Source of the DNA: Bacilli bacterium
GTDB taxonomy: Bacteria; Bacillota_I; Bacilli_A; RFN20; CAG-826
DNA length: 64,000 nt
Assembly: GCA_022641095.1 (NCBI GenBank)
Contig: JALCDB010000003.1
Location: 1 to 64,000, forward strand
Reading direction: 5' to 3'
This document shows, in pieces, positions 32,439-43,500 of the stretch. The position numbers and the translations under genes were made by a program. The notes under the pieces were generated by a model. The model was given only the letters and a program-made list of their open reading frames with translations, did no database searches and was not told the DNA's origin. Positions within the stretch are counted from its first letter, which is position 1; every line of letters starts with the position of its first letter.

Positions 32439-34709
32439 TTAAGCGGCCGCCTTAGCTTCCTGCCTGCTTTTCTTGCGGTCATAGAGATAAAGGGCGAGAA
32501 TCCCTAACCCCAGGAGAGGCAACGTGATGCCCAAGGTCCAGACGTAGTCGATCGTGATGTAGGCTACGCAGCCAAGGACATAACTGAGGCCAAGCCAGAA
32601 GAGAATCGTCCAAACGTAGGATTTGCGGTTTGGGAGCTCGGCTTTGGCCGTCGCCACCGAGGCGAAGCAGGGGATCGTCATGAGGTTGAACACCGCGAAG
32701 GCCACGACGCCTCCCGTGGAGATGCCGCACGCCTCCACGATCGCCTGGAAGCTGTCGGCTCCGATGATGGCGGCCAGCGTTTCGACGGTCGAGGTCACGT
32801 TCTCCTTGGCGACGATGCCTTGGATGGAGGCCACGGCCAACGTCCAGCCGTCCTGACCCGCCTGGACGCCGAACCCCATCGGGGTGAAAAGCGGCTGGAT
32901 CAGTCTGCCCAGATCGTTCAGGATGCTGGTTCCGGTCTCGTCGACCATCTGCCACCCCCAATTGAAGTTGGCCAAGAACCAAATGACGATCGTGGAAGCC
33001 AGGATGATGGTCGAGGCCTTCTTGATGAAGTGCTTGCCTTTGTCCCAGACGTGGATGGCGAGGGCCCGCGGCTTCGGCGTGTGGTAGGAAGGAAGCTCCA
33101 TGACGAAAGGCGGGACTTTCTCGCGCTGGCTCGTCTTGTTCATGACGATGACCGCGGCGATGGCCACGACGATCCCAAGCAGGTACATCGAAAAGGTGAA
33201 GAGCCCGCCGTCCATTCCGGCGGCTTCCGCGACCGCGTCGGCGACGACGGCCAAAAAGGTGGCTTTGGCCCCGCAGGCGAAGAAGGGGATGACGCGGATG
33301 GTCTTGGTCCTCTCTTTGTCGCTGGAGAGGGTGCGGGTGTTGATCATGGCCGGGATCCCGCACCCAAAACCCATGATCATCGGGATGAACGCGCGCCCGG
33401 AGACCCCGAAGCGGCGGAAAATGCGGTCCAGCATGAAGGCGATGCGGGCCATGTAGCCCGAGTCCTCGAGAATCGCGAAGAACAGGAAAAGGATCATGAT
33501 CTGCGGGACGAAGCCGAGGACGGCGAAGACGCCGGCGCAGACCCCCTCGCAAAGAAGGCCGTCGACCCACGCGGGGGCCCCGGCGCCTATGAGTCCGACG
33601 TGGATCCCCTGGGTTATGCACCCGAAAATGCCGGATCCGTCGTCACCGAACAGGCTATGGAAGAACTCGCCGATTCCGTTGATTCCGTCGGCGGTGTAGA
33701 AGAGCCCGGCGAACGGGTAAAACTGCTCGCCGTCGACCGTGAAGTGGATCAATCCGGAATACCCGTCCCCGAAGTCGACGCCCATGGCGCCGAGGTAAAA
33801 GAGGTCTCCGGCGAAAGTGAGGTGGAAGATGAGGAAGAGGATGGCGAGCAAGATGGGGATGCCCCAGATTTTGCTCGTCAGGACTTTGTCGATCTTGTCG
33901 CTCTTCGTGAGTTTATGGGCCTCGTTTCCGCTATGCCCATGTCGGCACGGCGCCAATTGGCTCACGATGTATTTATAACGCTCGTCCGCGCTTGTCGCCT
34001 CAAAACCTTCCTTGTCTTCGTAAAGGGTTTGGGCCTCTTGGCATTCGCGGTTATTCTCCTTCAGTTCGATTTCGTCGCCCTCTAAAGCCTTGATGGCGTG
34101 GAAAAGGGCGTTTTCCTTTAGCGACCCTTTGTATATCGCCTCCGCTTTCTCGATGATGGGTTTCAGGGGGCCTTGGTCCCATAGCGAGACGCCTTTGCGC
34201 GGCTTTCTTGAGGCGATGAAAGCCTCCGCCATGAGATTGTCGAGGTTGCGTTCCCGCAAAGCGGAAACCAAAATGACCGGGACCCCCAGCTTCCTGCCGA
34301 GGGCCTTGGCGTCGATCGACTGGCCGCTGCCATCCAAGGCGTCGCTCATGTTAAGGGCGAGGACGACCGGGACATCCATCTCAAGGATCTGGGTCGTCAT
34401 ATAGAGGTTGCGCTCAAGGTTCGTCGCGTCGATGACGTCGATGACGACGTCGGGATGGCTTTGGAGGATGTAATTCCGAGAAATGATTTCTTCGGGACTG
34501 TATGGCGATAGCGAATAGATACCCGGCAGATCGATGATCTTCGCTTCGCCGATGCGTTTGTTTTTGTAGACCCCTTCGCGTTTTTCGACGGTCACGCCCG
34601 GCCAATTGCCGACGTAGGCGGTGCTGCCCGTCAGAGAATTGAAGAGGGTCGTTTTCCCGGAATTGGGGTTTCCGGCCAACGCGATGGTGATTCCGTTTTC
34701 CTTTTTCAT
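32439..34709 (-). CDS. feoB: Ferrous iron transporter FeoB
   Basis: Fe2+ uptake across the cytoplasmic membrane. 756 residues. The N-terminal G domain has GNPNSGKTTLFNSLTG (G1), DLPGIYSLSPYS (G3) and NMSDALD (G4), followed by a helical GDI-like region. The membrane part contains two Gate repeats, with GFGCGIPAMINTRTL and PCFASVATAKAEL. The start overlaps the feoA stop by ATGA. It is controlled with feoA from one promoter carrying two DtxR-type boxes. Confidence 0.96.
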   Translation of the reverse strand: MKKENGITIALAGNPNSGKTTLFNSLTGSTAYVGNWPGVTVEKREGVYKNKRIGEAKIIDLPGIYSLSPYSPEEIISRNYILQSHPDVVIDVIDATNLERNLYMTTQILEMDVPVVLALNMSDALDGSGQSIDAKALGRKLGVPVILVSALRERNLDNLMAEAFIASRKPRKGVSLWDQGPLKPIIEKAEAIYKGSLKENALFHAIKALEGDEIELKENNRECQEAQTLYEDKEGFEATSADERYKYIVSQLAPCRHGHSGNEAHKLTKSDKIDKVLTSKIWGIPILLAILFLIFHLTFAGDLFYLGAMGVDFGDGYSGLIHFTVDGEQFYPFAGLFYTADGINGIGEFFHSLFGDDGSGIFGCITQGIHVGLIGAGAPAWVDGLLCEGVCAGVFAVLGFVPQIMILFLFFAILEDSGYMARIAFMLDRIFRRFGVSGRAFIPMIMGFGCGIPAMINTRTLSSDKERTKTIRVIPFFACGAKATFLAVVADAVAEAAGMDGGLFTFSMYLLGIVVAIAAVIVMNKTSQREKVPPFVMELPSYHTPKPRALAIHVWDKGKHFIKKASTIILASTIVIWFLANFNWGWQMVDETGTSILNDLGRLIQPLFTPMGFGVQAGQDGWTLAVASIQGIVAKENVTSTVETLAAIIGADSFQAIVEACGISTGGVVAFAVFNLMTIPCFASVATAKAELPNRKSYVWTILFWLGLSYVLGCVAYITIDYVWTLGITLPLLGLGILALYLYDRKKSRQEAKAAA

Positions 34710-35002
34710 TTTCCGTTCTCGCTTTCCTTGGCGGAGATCCTGACGAGGACGTTCATCGCCTCGCTGCGCCGGAGCGTGAGCTCATAGCCCCTGATGGTGA
34801 TTTCGAGGGGGTCGCCTAGCGGAGCCCTCTTTCTCAGATAGAGGTCGGCCCCGGGGGTCAGGCCCATGTCGAAGAGCCGTCTCCTGAGCTTGCCTTCCCC
34901 GCGGACCCGAACGATCGTCCCGCTTGAGCCGATCGCGGCCTCGCCCAGAGCGATTTCCCCGCCCGGCGAGACGCATTCGGCCGCATCGTCTTTTTCTTTC
35001 AT
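34706..35002 (-). CDS. feoA: FeoA domain protein
   Basis: 98 residues with an SH3-like FeoA domain (GSSGTIVRVRGEGKLRRRLF, then MGLTPGADLYLRKRAPLGDP). It interacts with FeoB in iron transport. A 20-residue acidic leader precedes the domain. It is the second of two FeoA-type genes in the operon. Confidence 0.92.
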   Translation of the reverse strand: MKEKDDAAECVSPGGEIALGEAAIGSSGTIVRVRGEGKLRRRLFDMGLTPGADLYLRKRAPLGDPLEITIRGYELTLRRSEAMNVLVRISAKESENGK

Positions 35003-35022
35003 GACGTTTTATGCCTTTCCTT

Positions 35023-35238
35023 TCATTCGACGAAAACCGAGGAGGCGGTGCTCATGTCGAGCGCGAGCCGCGTTTCGTTGACCAAAATCACCGTCCCCTC
35101 TTTCCCTTGGCTCATCACCTTGATGGGCTGATGCGCGACCAACCCAAGGCTTTCCAAGTGCTTTTTGGTTTTGAGATCCCGGATGAGGAGCTTTCTGATG
35201 GTGAACGTTTGGCCTTGCGGCGCTACTGGAAGCGGCAT
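35023..35238 (-). CDS. FeoA-like SH3 domain protein
   Basis: 71 residues, one FeoA-type domain (FTIRKLLIRDLKTKKHLESL, then GLVAHQPIKVMSQGKEGT). It is the first gene of the feo operon and is preceded by AGGAGG. Two separate FeoA proteins with one FeoB is a known arrangement in Bacillota. Confidence 0.85.
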   Translation of the reverse strand: MPLPVAPQGQTFTIRKLLIRDLKTKKHLESLGLVAHQPIKVMSQGKEGTVILVNETRLALDMSTASSVFVE

Positions 35239-35251
35239 CTCTTATCCTCCT

Positions 35252-35267
35252 GTTAGTGGTAACTAAC
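35252..35267. promoter_or_regulatory. DtxR-type operator 1 of the feo operon
   Basis: GTTAG-TGGTAA-CTAAC, perfect 5-bp arms. It sits between the feo -10 and the first ribosome site. Confidence 0.7.
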
Positions 35268-35274
35268 CGTGTTG

Positions 35275-35303
35275 ATGTTAGACATAACTAACTTCAATGT
35301 CAA
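35275..35303 (-). promoter_or_regulatory. Promoter of the feo operon
   Basis: On the minus strand TTGACA (35298-35303), a 17-nt spacer and TAACAT (35275-35280). A DtxR-type operator lies inside the spacer and another just past the -10, an arrangement expected to block RNA polymerase. Confidence 0.75.
35277..35292. promoter_or_regulatory. DtxR-type operator 2 of the feo operon
   Basis: GTTAG-ACATAA-CTAAC, perfect arms, 25 nt centre to centre from operator 1 and within the promoter spacer. Confidence 0.7.
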
Positions 35304-35343
35304 CAACATTTTGGAATCGCCCGCGGTCCGTTCCTTTCCTTTT

Positions 35344-35361
35344 GGTTAGTTTTAGATAACC
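35344..35361. promoter_or_regulatory. Imperfect DtxR-type operator before the DtxR-family gene
   Basis: GGTTAG-TTTTAG-ATAACC, one mismatch from the palindrome. It lies about 30 nt upstream of TATAAT (35392-35397) of the regulator gene, suggesting autoregulation. Confidence 0.5.
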
Positions 35362-35423
35362 GCGTTTATGGTCAAGCCCCTAAAGACGGACTATAATAAT
35401 AAGGGCACGCAAAGAGGCGCTTT

Positions 35424-35801
35424 ATGGAATCGAACGAAAGCAGCGAAGATTATCTCGAGAGGATCCTGATGCTCGAAGGCGAAAAAGGCCGGGACTTGGT
35501 CCATTCGGTTGACTTGGCCAACTCCTTTGGCTATAGCAAACCCAGCATTTCGGTGGCGATGAAGAAACTTAAGGAAGGCGGTTACCTTTCTTTCGGGCCT
35601 CGCGACGAATTGGTGCTGACGGAAGCGGGGCGGAAAAAGGCGAGCGAAATCTATGAGCGGCACAATCTGGTTGGGGATTTGTTCGTGGCGCTTGGGGTTC
35701 CTAAGGACATCGCTTTCAAGGACGCCTGCCACATCGAGCATATCCTTAGCCCCGAGACCTACGCCGCCCTCAAAAAGCATTTCGACGAAAAGGTCAAGTG
35801 A
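35424..35801 (+). CDS. DtxR/MntR-family metal-dependent regulator
   Basis: 125 residues. The winged helix (SVDLANSFGYSKPSISVAMK, then KLKEGGYLSFG) and the metal-binding helices (RHNLVGDLFVALGV, then DACHIEHILSPETY, with the His-Ile-Glu-His cluster) match MntR-type proteins. It ends before any SH3 domain. AAGAGG is the ribosome site. The matching palindromes at feo, ZIP-copA, the HMA gene and its own promoter make it the likely repressor of this group. Fe versus Mn is not decidable. Confidence 0.9.
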   Translation: MESNESSEDYLERILMLEGEKGRDLVHSVDLANSFGYSKPSISVAMKKLKEGGYLSFGPRDELVLTEAGRKKASEIYERHNLVGDLFVALGVPKDIAFKDACHIEHILSPETYAALKKHFDEKVK

Positions 35802-36241: not shown

Positions 36242-36352
36242 GGCGAAGGCTTCCATTTGCCATGACTTTGCTCGATTATTAATAATAATTGTTCGCTTTC
36301 GCGCGTTTCGATTGTCTTATTGAATGTAGGCGAGAAGAAAGGAGAACTTCTC

Positions 36353-36895
36353 ATGGGTCAAAGCTATGAGGCGCTTCTCTCCAAGGCGCTCCAGAGCGGG
36401 GACCAGGAGAAGATCAAAGCGGTTTTTGGGGAAATCTACGGCGCCTACGCGAAACTCGTCTTTTTCAGCCTCTCGCGTTACCTCAAAGACGAGGAGGACA
36501 TGAAAGACGTCACCAACGATGCTTTTTTGGCCTTCTTCTCCCATGCCGAAGAAGTGAGGGGCTCGGTCAAGTACTACCTTGTCTCTACGGCCAAGAATCT
36601 GGCTCTCAATCGTCTGAAGAAAGACAAAAAGGCCAATTTCACCGATTCAATCGAGGAATACGGAGACGCGTCGCCTCAAGATGGGTCCCTTATCTACCAT
36701 GAGTTTGTGAACGATCTCCGGGCCGTCCTTTCCGAAGAAGCGACGCGCATCGTGCTTCTTCGCGCCGTCGACGGCCTTGCCTTTGCCGAAATCGGGAAAA
36801 AACTCAGCATCACGGAGGACGCCGCGAGGATGGCCTACCAAAGGGCCAAAAGGAAATTCAGGCAATCGAAAAGAGGAAAACGGTATGGTAAATAA
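36353..36895 (+). CDS. ECF-type RNA polymerase sigma factor
   Basis: 180 residues with sigma region 2 (GAYAKLVFFSLSRYLKDEED, then MKDVTNDAFLAFF, residues 30-70) and region 4 (AVDGLAFAEIGKKLSITEDAARM, from about 138, split here) as a helix-turn-helix; region 3 is absent, as in ECF factors. GGAGAA precedes the ATG at 36353. The downstream membrane protein overlaps it by 11 nt, the usual position of an anti-sigma factor. Confidence 0.9.
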   Translation: MGQSYEALLSKALQSGDQEKIKAVFGEIYGAYAKLVFFSLSRYLKDEEDMKDVTNDAFLAFFSHAEEVRGSVKYYLVSTAKNLALNRLKKDKKANFTDSIEEYGDASPQDGSLIYHEFVNDLRAVLSEEATRIVLLRAVDGLAFAEIGKKLSITEDAARMAYQRAKRKFRQSKRGKRYGK

Positions 36896-38402
36896 GGACA
36901 TCTTTGAGAAGGAAATCGAGAAGAGGGCCAAAAAAAGGCTGTCTTTCTCCGACATCGAAGGGAAAATAGACTACGAGAAATTCGAGAAGCCATCCGCCAA
37001 GCCGAAGTCGTTATGGGTCAAAATCGGCATTCCGGTCGGATCGCTGGTCGCGGTCGGAGTAGTGGCTCTTTCCTTATACGAAGGCGGCGTTTTCCCGCTA
37101 AGCGGGCCTTCTTCCGAGGCCTTAAGGGCATCGCGCCTGGTCGCCCCGACGACCGAGAAGGTCCTCACCTCCCCGAAAAGGGAGATGTCCGAGACTACTT
37201 ACGCCTCTTATCGGACGTTCGCTAGGAACTTCGTGGCCTTGGCTTTCGACAATTCGATTAAAACGAACGGTGAGAGGAGCCTGGGCGTATCGATCCCCGA
37301 CGCCTATATGTGCTTCGCGCTGGCCGCCATCACCTCGACTTCCGAGGCTGAGGGGGATTTCCTTTCCTTCATGGGGTTAAATGGCGAAAGCGAGCTTAAG
37401 GAGGCGGCTTCCGAGGTCGTTTCCTCCCTTTGCACTTTGAAGGAAGAGGAAAACGGCGACCTTTCCGGCGGATACAACCTGAACTCCCTGTGGTTCAATC
37501 CGAAGAAAGTGAATCTGCTCCCAAAGGACGAGGATCTATATTCCTTGCTTGGCCGCGTTTTTGACGCGTCCATATACAACGAGGCGCTGACCAGCGATTC
37601 CGGGAACGCTTACCTCGCCTCCGAAGGCCTGAAAGGCTTTCCGACCCCTCGCTTGGCCCTCAAGGACGAGGATCCTTTGGCGTCCGCCGCGATGTCGGTC
37701 TATTACTGCGTCGACGGGTTCGCCGAGAAAGAAAATTTGAAGAGCCAATACGATTCGGGGACGCATAAGATGGCCTATTTTGAAGGCGGGGTTGAACGCG
37801 ATGTCGATTACATCGCCGACGTTTCGGTCGACCATAAGGTCTATGAGGGCGATGGCTTCACCATGGCCAAGATGAGGATCAGGAACCTCGACATGTCGTA
37901 TTACCTTCCCGACGAGGAAGAGGGGCTCCCAAGCGGGATTCTCGGCGCGGCCTTGTCCGGCTCCTATGAGCCGATGAGTTATGTCGACGAGGATACGGGG
38001 GAGCCCTCGTCGAAATACGAAGTTTCCATCCTGGCTCCTTATTTTAAGCTCGAAAACGACATTTCCCTCGATGGCGAAGCCCTCGCGAAGGCCTTTCCTA
38101 ACGCCACAAGCAGAGGGCTGAACGAGAAAATGGCGCAGGGGATCATCGGCCCCATTCGCCTCTCATACCTCATTCAGGATTCCCTTATGAGCTTCGACTA
38201 CAACGGGTTCCATTCTTGCTCGGCCACGATCGTCGGCGGGGAACCTGGGGCGCCCACTCCTCCGGGAAAACCTTACGATTTCAGCCTTTCGCACCCTTAT
38301 TTGTTCAGCGTCGAGCAGCCGTTCGTCAAGGTCGGCTCCTCTTCCGTTTCGGTTCCTTTGACCATTGGCGAGATCGTCGATCCGGGATATGCGGGGGCCT
38401 AA
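36885..38402 (+). CDS. Membrane-anchored serpin, probable anti-sigma partner
   Basis: 505 residues. A 42-residue charged cytoplasmic segment (FEKEIEKRAKKRLSFSD) is followed by one transmembrane helix (about 43-65) and an extracytoplasmic serpin domain (about 90-500). The domain follows serpin order: SIPDAYMCFALAAITST, YNLNSLWFNPKK, LASAAMSVYYCVDGFAEK, HKMAYFEG, LDMSYYLPDEE, and a C-terminus with HPYLFSV and GEIVDPG. Serpins inhibit serine or cysteine proteases by loop insertion. Overlap with the sigma gene and the topology suggest it holds the sigma factor at the membrane and senses outside proteases; that link is inference. AGAGGAAAA is the ribosome site. Confidence 0.8.
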   Translation: MVNKDIFEKEIEKRAKKRLSFSDIEGKIDYEKFEKPSAKPKSLWVKIGIPVGSLVAVGVVALSLYEGGVFPLSGPSSEALRASRLVAPTTEKVLTSPKREMSETTYASYRTFARNFVALAFDNSIKTNGERSLGVSIPDAYMCFALAAITSTSEAEGDFLSFMGLNGESELKEAASEVVSSLCTLKEEENGDLSGGYNLNSLWFNPKKVNLLPKDEDLYSLLGRVFDASIYNEALTSDSGNAYLASEGLKGFPTPRLALKDEDPLASAAMSVYYCVDGFAEKENLKSQYDSGTHKMAYFEGGVERDVDYIADVSVDHKVYEGDGFTMAKMRIRNLDMSYYLPDEEEGLPSGILGAALSGSYEPMSYVDEDTGEPSSKYEVSILAPYFKLENDISLDGEALAKAFPNATSRGLNEKMAQGIIGPIRLSYLIQDSLMSFDYNGFHSCSATIVGGEPGAPTPPGKPYDFSLSHPYLFSVEQPFVKVGSSSVSVPLTIGEIVDPGYAGA

Positions 38403-38406
38403 GGTT

Positions 38407-38925
38407 ATGACGTCCGGAAAGCGGCTTTTGGCTAGCCTAGCGGCGTCCGCGCTTCTATTTTCGCTCGGAGGGTGCTCCAGTCAGGGCCAGCGCCTCGATA
38501 GGCCCGACGACACCAATCTTGAGCTATGGATCACGCAGAGGGTTTCCGCCGCCGATTTAGAGGGCTGCGCTTATCTTCCGGGATGGTTCGGCGCCAGCGA
38601 GTATTTGGATTCGAGGTACGCGGTCCTTGGCGGCCCCGCGCGCGTTCCGGAAAGGCACGTCACTTATCTCGTGAGCGGATATCCGGATTTGAAGGACGAC
38701 CCGGCGGTGACCAAAATCGAAATAACCGATCCCGCCATCTTCGTATACGGACTGAGTTTGGAATCGGAAGAAGAAGCAATCGAAGGCACCATGGTCGGGG
38801 AAGGCTTCGCGAAACAGGACGAAACCACGTTATCGTTTGGCAAAGGCAACGTCAGTTTTCGTTTCGGAAGCGACAAGATTTCCATCAGCGCATTAACGAC
38901 GAACAAAACCGGGATCATATACTGA
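38407..38925 (+). CDS. Lipoprotein in the sigma/serpin operon
   Basis: 172 residues with a lipoprotein signal peptide: KRLLASLAASALLFSLGG then Cys in lipobox LGGC near residue 22. The mature part has no family I recognise. The start lies 4 nt after the serpin stop. Membership of the operon suggests a surface protein working with, or shielded by, the serpin. Confidence 0.7.
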   Translation: MTSGKRLLASLAASALLFSLGGCSSQGQRLDRPDDTNLELWITQRVSAADLEGCAYLPGWFGASEYLDSRYAVLGGPARVPERHVTYLVSGYPDLKDDPAVTKIEITDPAIFVYGLSLESEEEAIEGTMVGEGFAKQDETTLSFGKGNVSFRFGSDKISISALTTNKTGIIY

Positions 38926-39124: not shown

Positions 39125-39153
39125 TTGAACGTTCCGTTCCTTGCCTCTATAAT
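39125..39153 (+). promoter_or_regulatory. Promoter of the Ser-rich lipoprotein gene
   Basis: TTGAAC (39125-39130), 17-nt spacer, TATAAT (39148-39153). Transcription would start near 39160, just upstream of AAGGAG at 39167-39172. Confidence 0.75.
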
Positions 39154-39179
39154 GCAACCATTTAATAAGGAGTTCACCC

Positions 39180-40531
39180 ATGAAAAAATCGCTTCGATCC
39201 TGCTTCTATCCGCCCCTTTGTTCGTTCTTAGCGCCTGCGATCCGGCCTCTTCCCTAGCGGAGAGTTCCTCTATGCAACCAGCCTCTTCTTCCTCGGCTGG
39301 GGACTCCTCTATGCAATCGGCCTCTTCCTCCTCTTCCCAAAGCCAACCCTCGCTCGCCGAGGAAATCAAAAGTCATATCGATTCAAAGGCGAGCCATCTC
39401 GCGTCTTATTACGTCAACGAATCCAATGGCTCCTCTTCTTTCTACGGTTCCATCATCGGTCAGGATATCGATGGGTACGATTACGACAAAACGATGACGG
39501 AGCGAAAAACCATATACGACAATTATGTGTCCTCCTCGGAAATCGCCTCGACCGAAGTCGACGCCGATTCCGGCGAAACGGAAGCGACGGAAAACTCCAC
39601 GGAACTTCATTATTACGATGATGAGTACAATTATTACGAGGTCGGCGTCGATCATTTGAACGGCGATTCGTACTATGGCAGCATCGTGGACGATGACGTC
39701 GACCAAAGCGATCTTTCCCATTATTTCAAAGACAAGGATTTCAACGATCTCGCGTTGTCGTTGTTTTCGGATGGACCCTACCTTGACGCGCCGCTAAAAG
39801 CGGAGGGGGATTTCGAGTCCTCCTTCACCTTCTCTTTCGATCTTGAAACAGAGGTTTCCTACAGCGATTTCTTCGATGATTACGATATTTTTCCGGAAGA
39901 CGATTGGAAAATCGGCTTTTCGGCCTCGGTTTCGCAAATCGCCACCATCGGCGTGAGTGATGGGGTCGTGTCCTCCTACGTCGAAAGCGTCGTCACTTCC
40001 TTTCCGAATTCGGTTTTGACGGGCGAAGCCTACGCCGAACCGGTCGTGGTCGCGACCTCCTTGCTTTCTTATACCGATATTTCCTGCCAGGATTTCGGCG
40101 ACTATTCCGGCGTTTACTACCACACCGTTTTCTTCGTTCCCGCCTCTTATGAAGGGACCTTCAAAAACGGCGAGGATACGCTGACGCTAGATGAGCTCGC
40201 GGGCGCCAGTTGCTCAGGGGAATATAACGGGAACCCCTTGGCTTGCGATTATTTTTACCAGCAAGACTTCCTGGACGCTTACGATATTTGCTGCGATAAC
40301 GGCGACCATCATTACATCGTTCGTCTCAACAAAGACGGGAACCTCGACGTTTTCGACTTCTACTCGCGTCAGGAGACGAGTTATTTCAGTTTTGACGGCG
40401 GCGAGACGATCTACCGCTTTTATGCCGTCAAGGACGGGGATGGGGAGTTCCTAAGATCCGATATTGTCCGAGTCAACGCCGTGCCTGAGGGATACGCCCT
40501 TTCAAAAAGCGCGGTCTATCAAAGGGGCTGA
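39180..40531 (+). CDS. Ser-rich secreted lipoprotein, start codon one base out of frame
   Basis: The strong ribosome site AAGGAG (39167-39172) serves the ATG at 39180, which is followed by six A. Read directly, that frame does not give a signal peptide. With one more A it reads M-K-K-I-A-S-I-L-L-L-S-A-P-L-F-V-L-S-A-C, a classic lipoprotein signal, and stays in the long frame to 40531. The mature protein has a Ser/Gln/Ala-rich linker (about 30 residues) and an acidic, Tyr-rich body (YYDDEYNYYEVGVD). No enzymatic motif. Deletion, sequence error, or phase variation at A6/A7 would all explain this. Confidence 0.65.
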
Positions 40532-41902: not shown

Positions 41903-43183
41903 TTACGCAGACACAGATAAGGCGTAAGTCAAGGCACACTGGCAAGCGTTTCTTAATAATTCGTAATCGGAATTGGCGATTTCGTATTTCTTCGATAAGG
42001 GAACCAGGGAATCGGTTATCGTTTTCGAAAGGAAAGACGTTTTTTCTTTGGCTTCTTTCTCCGTCAGTCCAAAATATGGCGAAATCCGAAGAGCGCAATC
42101 GAGGTTTAAAGTGCGATCGTAGCCATCGAGGGACAGAGTCAGGGTTTTCTTCTCGGCTGAGGGGTTTATGTCATAAGCGGGGGAAATGGCCCACCCGTCT
42201 TCTTTTAAGAGAAAGCCATGGTTCCGCAAATGATCGTCGGTGTTGGAAATCATGATATTGAACACCATTCTCGTAAAAAGTTCCTCCAGCGATTGTTTGA
42301 GTCGCTGAGGCGAGCCATATGATTTTAGAAAGGAAACGATATCCAGGTAACTGGCCTCTTCCCCGTCTTTTTTCCCCAAAAGAGCCATGGCGGAGGAAAA
42401 ATGAAGGCGTTTATTTCCGTGGCGATCGAACCTTTTTGTCAAAAATGTGTATCCTCGATCCGAGAACTTATCCAATTTGGCCTCCGGAACGTCGATTAGG
42501 CATTTTTGGGCCATATCATGGGCGATCATTTCCAGCCCGCTGACGTTGCATTTATCGTTTTTTGCCGGAAATTTGGCGATCCATAACGAACCGTCGGGGA
42601 AACAAATCGAAGCCTTGGGCCTAGCCCCTCCTAATGAAGAACCGGGAGCCAGCAAACAGCGAAGTTTGCCATCGGATATCATGTGCCCTTGATCGATTTC
42701 ATAAGCGGCTTCTTCCAAGTCCCGAAGGCTCGTCAACGGAGGAATGGGGCTATCAATGTCGGAAGAAAGAAACTGCCCGTCTTTTTCTTTTTTGAAGCGA
42801 AGCGCTCCCATCCTTGCTTGATCGGAAACACCCAAGAGATAGTCGAACTCGGTCAAAGGCTTGAAAGGCCGGTTTTCTTCTTTGGCTCTTCGCATTTCGT
42901 ATGTTTGCCTTAGCAAGCGGCCCCATCGATCGGGGGCCGAATCGGCGATAAAACCAAAAATTGGTTTTTTAGCGGTGACATATTGCCTTCCTGAATAAAA
43001 ATATAGATCGGGATCGAGAAGAAGGGCGTTTTCGTTATGGGATTTTAGAAATGATTCCTCAAATTCAAACGAATATGAAACGTTGCCTAAGACATCGTCT
43101 TCAAACAAGGTTCCTAGGGGGAGGTCTTGTTCTTTGGCAGAGCCCAAATAAACAAAGGCTTTTCTTTCCAAACTGTTTTTCAT
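41903..43183 (-). CDS. hipA: HipA-family kinase toxin
   Basis: Serine/threonine kinase toxin; characterised HipA proteins phosphorylate aminoacyl-tRNA synthetases and cause persistence. 426 residues. The N-terminal subdomain includes FGFIADSAPDRWGR; the ATP loop is LAPGSSLGGARPKA (near 168); the catalytic loop is ISNTDDHLRNHGFLL (near 317); the metal motif is SPAYDINPS (near 338). All kinase residues are present. Its start overlaps the stop of the HTH gene by ATGA; the frame runs upstream to 43357 but that part overlaps the antitoxin. Confidence 0.92.
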   Translation of the reverse strand: MKNSLERKAFVYLGSAKEQDLPLGTLFEDDVLGNVSYSFEFEESFLKSHNENALLLDPDLYFYSGRQYVTAKKPIFGFIADSAPDRWGRLLRQTYEMRRAKEENRPFKPLTEFDYLLGVSDQARMGALRFKKEKDGQFLSSDIDSPIPPLTSLRDLEEAAYEIDQGHMISDGKLRCLLAPGSSLGGARPKASICFPDGSLWIAKFPAKNDKCNVSGLEMIAHDMAQKCLIDVPEAKLDKFSDRGYTFLTKRFDRHGNKRLHFSSAMALLGKKDGEEASYLDIVSFLKSYGSPQRLKQSLEELFTRMVFNIMISNTDDHLRNHGFLLKEDGWAISPAYDINPSAEKKTLTLSLDGYDRTLNLDCALRISPYFGLTEKEAKEKTSFLSKTITDSLVPLSKKYEIANSDYELLRNACQCALTYALSVSA

Positions 43184-43500
43184 TTCGCTTTTTTCCTCGC
43201 TCTTTTGCCAACGACAAGGTTTCGATCCTGAATGAGTCGGCCCAGTTCGTCGTCGCTTGCCACCTTCAGCAGTTCTTTGTCCATCCCGTAAAGTGCGTGA
43301 AGGGAGGCGGCGTAAGCGCCAAGGGAAACGCTGGGGGAACCGTTTTCGATTTTCCACAAGGTCGCTCTGGAAATCCCGGCTCGAAGGCAGATCGTTTCCA
43401 TGGATATTCCCCGCCGGAGCCTTGCCATTTTGATATTTGAGCCCATTTGAGTGAGTATTCTTTGGGTGTCCGGCATAATGATTACTTTTTTCTTATTCAT
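43180..43500 (-). CDS. hipB: HipB-type XRE antitoxin
   Basis: 106 residues with an XRE helix-turn-helix (GSNIKMARLRRGISMETICL, then RAGISRATLWKIENGSP, about 20-57) and a basic C-terminal tail. It is the first gene of the hipBA operon, neutralises the kinase and represses the operon in known systems. An inverted repeat overlaps its promoter. Confidence 0.88.
   Translation of the reverse strand: MNKKKVIIMPDTQRILTQMGSNIKMARLRRGISMETICLRAGISRATLWKIENGSPSVSLGAYAASLHALYGMDKELLKVASDDELGRLIQDRNLVVGKRARKKAK

Follow-up and report, generated by a model that had tools for sequence, protein, structure and literature searches.

Among the described pairs of a sigma factor and a membrane-bound anti-sigma factor, RsiV is one in which the anti-sigma factor meets an attacking enzyme directly: its outer domain binds in the active site of lysozyme, which it inhibits (PMC5014341). 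On lysozyme binding RsiV becomes sensitive to signal peptidase and is then cut by RasP, and the operon is autoregulated (PMC5014341). The serpins of Clostridium thermocellum are listed as separate cellulosomal proteins (PMC3990059), and a phylogeny of 6,000 serpin sequences noted membrane-anchored prokaryotic serpins, found no functional trend and nowhere mentions sigma factors (PMC8233489).

Here we describe a two-gene module in a 64,000-nucleotide stretch of Bacilli DNA (the whole of which we call the window), and we give a probability of roughly 0.6 to the reading that it comprises an ECF sigma factor and a membrane anti-sigma factor that would sense proteases through an outer serpin domain. 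Serpins, the protease-trapping fold best known from human blood, change shape irreversibly on cleavage by a protease, and we know of no clear physiological role for the bacterial members so far. The combination of a sigma factor and a membrane serpin recurs in gut and rumen bacteria, mainly within one order of Bacilli, and by analogy with RsiV protease sensing is the best-supported function that we infer for the pair. The features of the window are collected in Table 1.

Table 1. Positions in the window of the sigma/serpin operon and of the parts of the serpin protein.
Feature	Position	Strand	Evidence
-10-like element TTGTCTTATT	36312..36321	+	identical to the -10 part of the motif common to many sigma/serpin operons
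ECF sigma factor, 180 aa (P0002)	36353..36895	+	Pfam and NCBIfam matches
Membrane-anchored serpin, proposed anti-sigma factor, 505 aa (P0001)	36885..38402	+	profile, profile-profile and structure comparisons
Charged cytoplasmic segment, residues about 1-42; proposed sigma-binding part	36885..37010	+	conservation; distances tracking the sigma
Single membrane helix, residues about 43-65	37011..37079	+	hydropathy
Variable extracellular linker, residues about 66-100	37080..37184	+	entropy 1.47; low pLDDT at linker start
Serpin domain, residues about 101-502	37185..38390	+	profile vs PDB, AlphaFold2 model, Foldseek, VIA-align
Hinge and reactive-centre loop, residues 441-470, P15 Gly = 441	38205..38294	+	alignment; hinge and variability analysis
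Lipoprotein gene	38407..38925	+	4 nt after the serpin gene; no Pfam match

An earlier note on this DNA, made from the letters alone, had taken the first gene for an ECF sigma factor, and the family searches bear this out: the product consists of regions 2 and 4 only, both above the curated Pfam cut-offs (Sigma70_r2, 2.3e-10, 40.6 bits; Sigma70_r4_2, 7.7e-7, 29.1 bits), and it likewise passes the NCBIfam cut-off for sigma70-ECF (6.3e-15, 55.2 bits). The serpin gene starts inside the sigma gene, with an overlap of 11 nt. The anti-sigma-like topology that had been read from this second gene, namely a short charged cytoplasmic segment, one helix and a large outer domain, held up on analysis, and basic residues are more frequent on the helix's inner side. 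The locus has the layout of a membrane anti-sigma factor, with an overlapping or abutting sigma gene, a cytoplasmic segment and one membrane helix.

The outer domain had also been proposed to be of the serpin type. P0001 alone has no match in Pfam or NCBIfam and does not reach the cut-off of the Pfam Serpin model (PF00079; MEROPS family I4), and a single-sequence search of the PDB returned one weak match, the serpin 3ozq, at E 0.7; by such searches alone the window serpin would have been overlooked. The orthologues within the genus, found using P0001 as query and then aligned, gave a profile of 12 sequences for which every PDB match at E <=1 is a serpin (39 of 39, best 3.9e-6), and comparison of this profile with that of a Pfam-positive paralogue family, the one represented by a second pair in the same genome, gave a probability of 99.4% (E 4e-21). 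Within the window's own subfamily, 4 of the 12 members match the Pfam Serpin model, the best at 9.6e-13. The comparison of a predicted structure with serpins, which the earlier note had suggested as a check, found the serpin fold: an AlphaFold2 model computed from the window protein and ten relatives (mean pLDDT 71.6, pTM 0.76, residues 1-73 of low confidence) matched tengpin in a Foldseek search of the PDB at E 2.2e-17, as well as many other serpins, and aligned with tengpin in VIA-align with Z 31.9 over 352 residues at an rmsd of 3.6. Tengpin and conserpin are among the nearest solved structures. The outer domain is thus a serpin, though divergent. The failure of Pfam to detect the window protein might be taken to mean that a divergent membrane protein has been misread as a serpin and stands by chance next to an unrelated sigma gene, but profile, profile-profile and structure comparisons all lead to serpins and the pairing recurs in 72 genomes, so that we regard such an error as next to impossible.

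This recurrence was established by collecting serpins from 279 genomes of the window's order and 395 of its class, from which about 110 stretches were taken; the neighbours of the serpins were read by one uniform scan procedure, with duplicates and fragments removed before counting. The earlier note had suggested looking for sigma genes beside serpins in relatives, and there the arrangement is kept, with 84 pairs of a sigma gene and a membrane serpin in 72 genomes, 21 genera and 5 families (four inside the window's order and one outside), counts that apply to the one class which the survey reached, a phylum-level genome set having returned the same class again. The relatives that carry names are uncultured Bacilli, Firmicutes and Erysipelotrichaceae genomes, several of them from the rumen and other ruminant stomach compartments. 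Across the 84 pairs the commonest gap between the two reading frames is -4 nt. With membrane helices called by a simple hydropathy rule, and sigma genes by a profile built from those adjoining serpins, which a very different sigma could escape, a sigma gene stands directly upstream of 84 of the 91 serpins called internal-helix and of none of the 106 others (lipoproteins, secreted and cytosolic forms). The corresponding Fisher p of 6e-48 is descriptive only, related genomes not being independent.

Seven serpins called internal-helix stand without a sigma gene. Two of these (L158 and L159) look like lipoproteins or mis-started frames, two (L166 and L170) are cytosolic serpins of which the own hydrophobic helix was miscalled as a membrane helix, and three (L206, L209 and L211), from another family, are genuine membrane serpins whose tails are acidic and beside which no sigma gene was seen. 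Three serpins of the sensor lineage (L100, L118 and L141) have a sensor-type hinge, but the cytoplasmic segment is gone and there is no sigma gene. For the sigma-linked state, a tree of 201 serpin domains calls for 12 changes or more, of which well-supported branches force 8, and it follows that sigma linkage was gained or lost repeatedly.

Other serpin arrangements were also encountered. The genomes of family f17 (L203 and L205-L211) encode serpins anchored in the membrane, with cytoplasmic tails that are short or acidic; no sigma gene was seen adjoining them, and the Pfam match of these proteins is split in two pieces, which suggests an insertion inside the serpin domain. Serpin domains of the window type occur as lipoproteins, with no sigma gene nearby, at L045:5053-6402 (41% identity to the window protein) and at L160:1805-3154, and lipoprotein serpin genes stand in tandem, two or three together, at L102:2312-5040, L104:2288-5021, L111:2297-4937 and L129:142-4508.

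The cytoplasmic segment has a median length of 46 residues across the pairs. In close orthologues of the window protein it is well conserved: its entropy is 0.34, while the serpin body has 0.79 and the linker 1.47. Its pairwise distances follow those of the sigma factor (r 0.83, a value that none of 2000 permutations reached; with the serpin domain removed, 0.68), a correlation that can also arise from plain co-inheritance. Since the segment varies with the sigma, and since its loss accompanies the loss of the sigma, the genomic context strongly supports the serpin protein as the putative anti-sigma factor of its paired sigma. Alternatively, the serpin protein might be no anti-sigma factor at all but a surface inhibitor in an operon with a sigma that controls it. 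Pfam finds no known anti-sigma domain in the segment, and beyond the serpin domain only marginal chance hits in the families scanned, which would suit a surface inhibitor. We nevertheless hold that alternative to be highly improbable, as all 84 of the serpins that adjoin a sigma gene are called internal-helix behind a cytoplasmic segment, and 0 of the 106 other serpins adjoin one; moreover, the segment is conserved, varies with the sigma and is lost along with it.

Across the 84 sensors the hinge has glycine at P15 in every case (84/84), charged residues are absent at P14, P12 and P10 and very rare at P8, and the stretch P17 to P6 is free of proline; P13 and P11, which can be charged, would face solvent once the loop had inserted. 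The pattern of an insertable hinge (Gly at P15, small uncharged residues at P14, P12, P10 and P8) is near-complete in the 70 sensors of the second-pair type, where P15 is always Gly, P14, P12 and P10 are uncharged and P8 is small in 94%. The 14 window-type sensors have Gly at P15, small residues at P12, P10 and P8 (with one Ile at P12), Phe or Leu at P14, and Tyr at P17. From these residues loop insertion seems plausible for the window type, whereas it is a less certain classical inhibitor, by trapping, than the second-pair type, because the window's own subfamily has diverged (Phe at P14, Tyr at P17, below Pfam detection). In the AlphaFold2 model residues 441-454, past the P15 glycine, form a strand after a turn, which resembles the loop-inserted state, AlphaFold being unreliable for choosing between serpin states. 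Among the 12-residue stretches of the serpin domain, those in the reactive loop (starts 450-456) vary most in close window-type orthologues, and the strongly conserved hinge directly precedes them; a variable loop after a conserved hinge is the usual signature of a serpin loop that faces changing proteases.

The same residues invite another explanation, in which the outer serpin is a ligand or stress switch: its metastable fold would shift in response to a small molecule, pH or heat, and so release the sigma. Hormone-carrying serpins shift upon ligand release, hormone-binding globulins, cleaved or latent, are among the best structural matches of the window protein, and the window subfamily is without the classical inhibitory hinge (P14 Phe, P17 Tyr). 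The globulins, however, rank alongside tengpin, antithrombin and many inhibitors, so that the matches indicate only the common fold; moreover, the variable loop with its conserved hinge fits protease partners better than a single ligand, and the second-pair family retains a near-classical hinge. We consider a ligand or stress switch unlikely, and continue with protease sensing.

When the Pfam serpin model was run against the window genome, one more serpin came up, a protein of 483 residues in which a cytoplasmic segment and a membrane helix precede a complete serpin domain that passes the Pfam Serpin cut-off (2e-36, 126 bits). Its gene and another ECF sigma gene share 4 nt, and this second pair lies within the cluster frr - sigma - serpin - uppS - cdsA - dxr - rasP. 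About 3 kb downstream of the pair is an M50 site-2 protease (E 5e-40, G000:C1:322404-323783), the only one found in the window genome; it is this class of protease that cuts RsiV and RsiW in B. subtilis. At L223:774-1971 (G000:C5, around 95 kb) the genome has a further ECF sigma gene followed by a gene for a 239-residue protein that shares the layout of the paired serpin proteins but has a different, unrecognised outer domain.

The gene that follows the pair changes from clade to clade. In the window it is a lipoprotein gene, probably co-transcribed with the pair, which adjoins a pair only here and in one near-identical genome; relatives of it occur in three other genomes of the genus, away from the pair (in G048 about 36 kb separate it from a window-type pair). 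The suggestion of the earlier note that this lipoprotein is the protected target or the output of the system found no support, and we rejected it as part of the module, since its place next to the pair is not conserved. In sister genomes, the gene after a window-type pair encodes a CAAX/Rce1-like membrane protease (Pfam 3.6e-14), at L049:9729-10364 and at the equivalent place in L032, L036, L037, L038 and L051; it could be a site-1 protease or unrelated to the system. Upstream in the window, FeoB- and FeoA-like genes, read from sequence, and then an iron-dependent repressor (Pfam 3.9e-13) occupy 32439-35801, just upstream of a gene for a heavy-metal-associated protein and of the sigma gene. 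The next gene after the operon's lipoprotein (39125-40531) encodes a serine-rich lipoprotein of 468 residues with no Pfam match, and the minus-strand gene at 41903-43357 encodes a protein that reads like a HipA-type kinase.

Upstream of the sigma genes, a search for dyads gave GAC-N17-TTGT in 10 of 64 non-redundant regions, as compared to 0.1 expected. The refined motif, CGACAAAA-N13-TTGTCTTATT (in an alternative spelling, CGACRAAA-N13-TTGTNTTATT), precedes sigma genes in genera of several families, and its strong matches usually lie at most 30 nt from the chosen start codon. This shared two-part motif looks like an ECF promoter and would hence point to autoregulation. In the window, the -10-like element is 31 nt ahead of the sigma start codon and, together with its flank, is the sole such site in the genome. 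As the -10 part is exact but the -35 part of the operon mismatches the shared CGACRAAA, the window sigma may read another -35. A scan of 37 genomes of the genus with the strict motif identified no wider sigma regulon, the motif occurring solely at the sigma operon, in 3 of the 37; two-mismatch sites in the window genome are mostly within genes. Lipoprotein serpins were considered as members of the regulon and rejected, as only 1 of 19 free serpins in genomes with sensors has the motif, which is no enrichment. The sole such case is the lipoprotein serpin L027, with a convincing motif and in the same genome as sensor L005.

How might such a module work? At rest, as the context of the two genes suggests, the cytoplasmic segment of the serpin protein would hold the sigma. 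An external protease would attack the exposed reactive loop, and the cleaved loop would then enter the main sheet and the domain refold, with or without trapping of the protease, as serpin biology and the conserved hinge would lead us to expect. Because a cut in the loop alone leaves the serpin on its stalk, an extra unmasking step must be assumed: refolding would expose the stalk to a site-1 protease, for which the variable linker is a possible cleavage region. The site-2 protease RasP would then cut the membrane helix, the remnant would be degraded and the sigma would be freed; for both cleavages RsiV and RsiW serve as models. Finally, to judge from the shared promoter motif, the sigma would transcribe its own operon, yielding more sensor serpin, which might also soak up protease. 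We see about an even chance that the module goes as far as a one-shot, irreversible molecular fuse, in which a cut in the loop by a foreign or host protease releases the sigma and the sensor is then rebuilt, the whole having been repeatedly gained or lost in gut Bacilli, while its loops would change fast to keep up with different proteases.

Alternatively, the serpin might act mainly as a guard that inhibits the site-1 protease or other surface proteases which would otherwise cut the anti-sigma stalk, with the sigma freed only once the inhibitor is consumed. A serpin fixed next to its own stalk would shield it, the variable linker adjoins the helix, and a CAAX/Rce1-like membrane protease comes after the pair in several orthologous loci. 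Such a guard differs from the proposed protease sensor solely in which protease gets trapped, but the variable loop suggests changing external targets and not one housekeeping protease, and we find the guard decidedly unlikely.

The earlier note had known of no described system in which a serpin is the sensor of an anti-sigma factor, and none was found in open-access full texts. There, serpin together with anti-sigma, ECF sigma or sigma factor gave only incidental co-mentions (prior mention elsewhere is possible), and no transcriptional system that senses external proteases via a protease inhibitor was found in the open-access literature. While the combination of a sigma and a membrane anti-sigma factor with a sensor domain is already known, the serpin as the sensor appears to be new. 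If our reading is true, the shape change of a serpin would be used as a signal, beyond its use as a trap, and this would suggest how small-genome gut bacteria notice digestive or immune proteases of the host, or those of competitors. The widespread and conserved operon makes both the role of the serpin and protease sensing testable with two genes, and the module represents a potential protease biosensor with swappable loops.

We close with the systems that the module most resembles. SigI falls outside the ECF group, unlike the sigma factor described here. The SigI-RsgI systems of Clostridium thermocellum likewise combine a sigma with a membrane anti-sigma factor, interchangeable outer sensors and RseP-type cleavage (PMC12203970, PMC3990059), whereas RsgI senses polysaccharides. 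Siropins, miropin and tengpin, serpins of gut and thermophile bacteria, share the fold and the logic of the hinge, but siropins are described as protease inhibitors (PMC5127057). With the class I and II anti-sigma factors of ECF sigmas the serpin protein shares an N-terminal cytoplasmic segment, here the proposed sigma-binding part, a helix and an outer domain (PMC7406223); in contrast to class I, the segment, at its median length, is likely too short for a four-helix class I domain, and Pfam is silent on it. The closest working analogue would be RsiV. Like SigV-RsiV of Bacillus subtilis and Clostridioides difficile, the pair would be an autoregulated sigma with a membrane anti-sigma factor, autoregulation being suggested here by the motif only, and in our proposal it would also share an outer domain that binds and inhibits the attacking enzyme, and the freeing of the sigma by stepwise site-1 and RasP cleavage (PMC5014341, PMC4183432, PMC9044953). 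RsiV binds lysozyme with a different fold, and Pfam found no RsiV-type lysozyme-binding domain in the window protein or in the sensor families scanned; here the sensor is a serpin domain and the presumed signal a protease. If the proposal is true, the principle of RsiV, a receptor that is also an inhibitor, would be extended from lysozyme to proteases.
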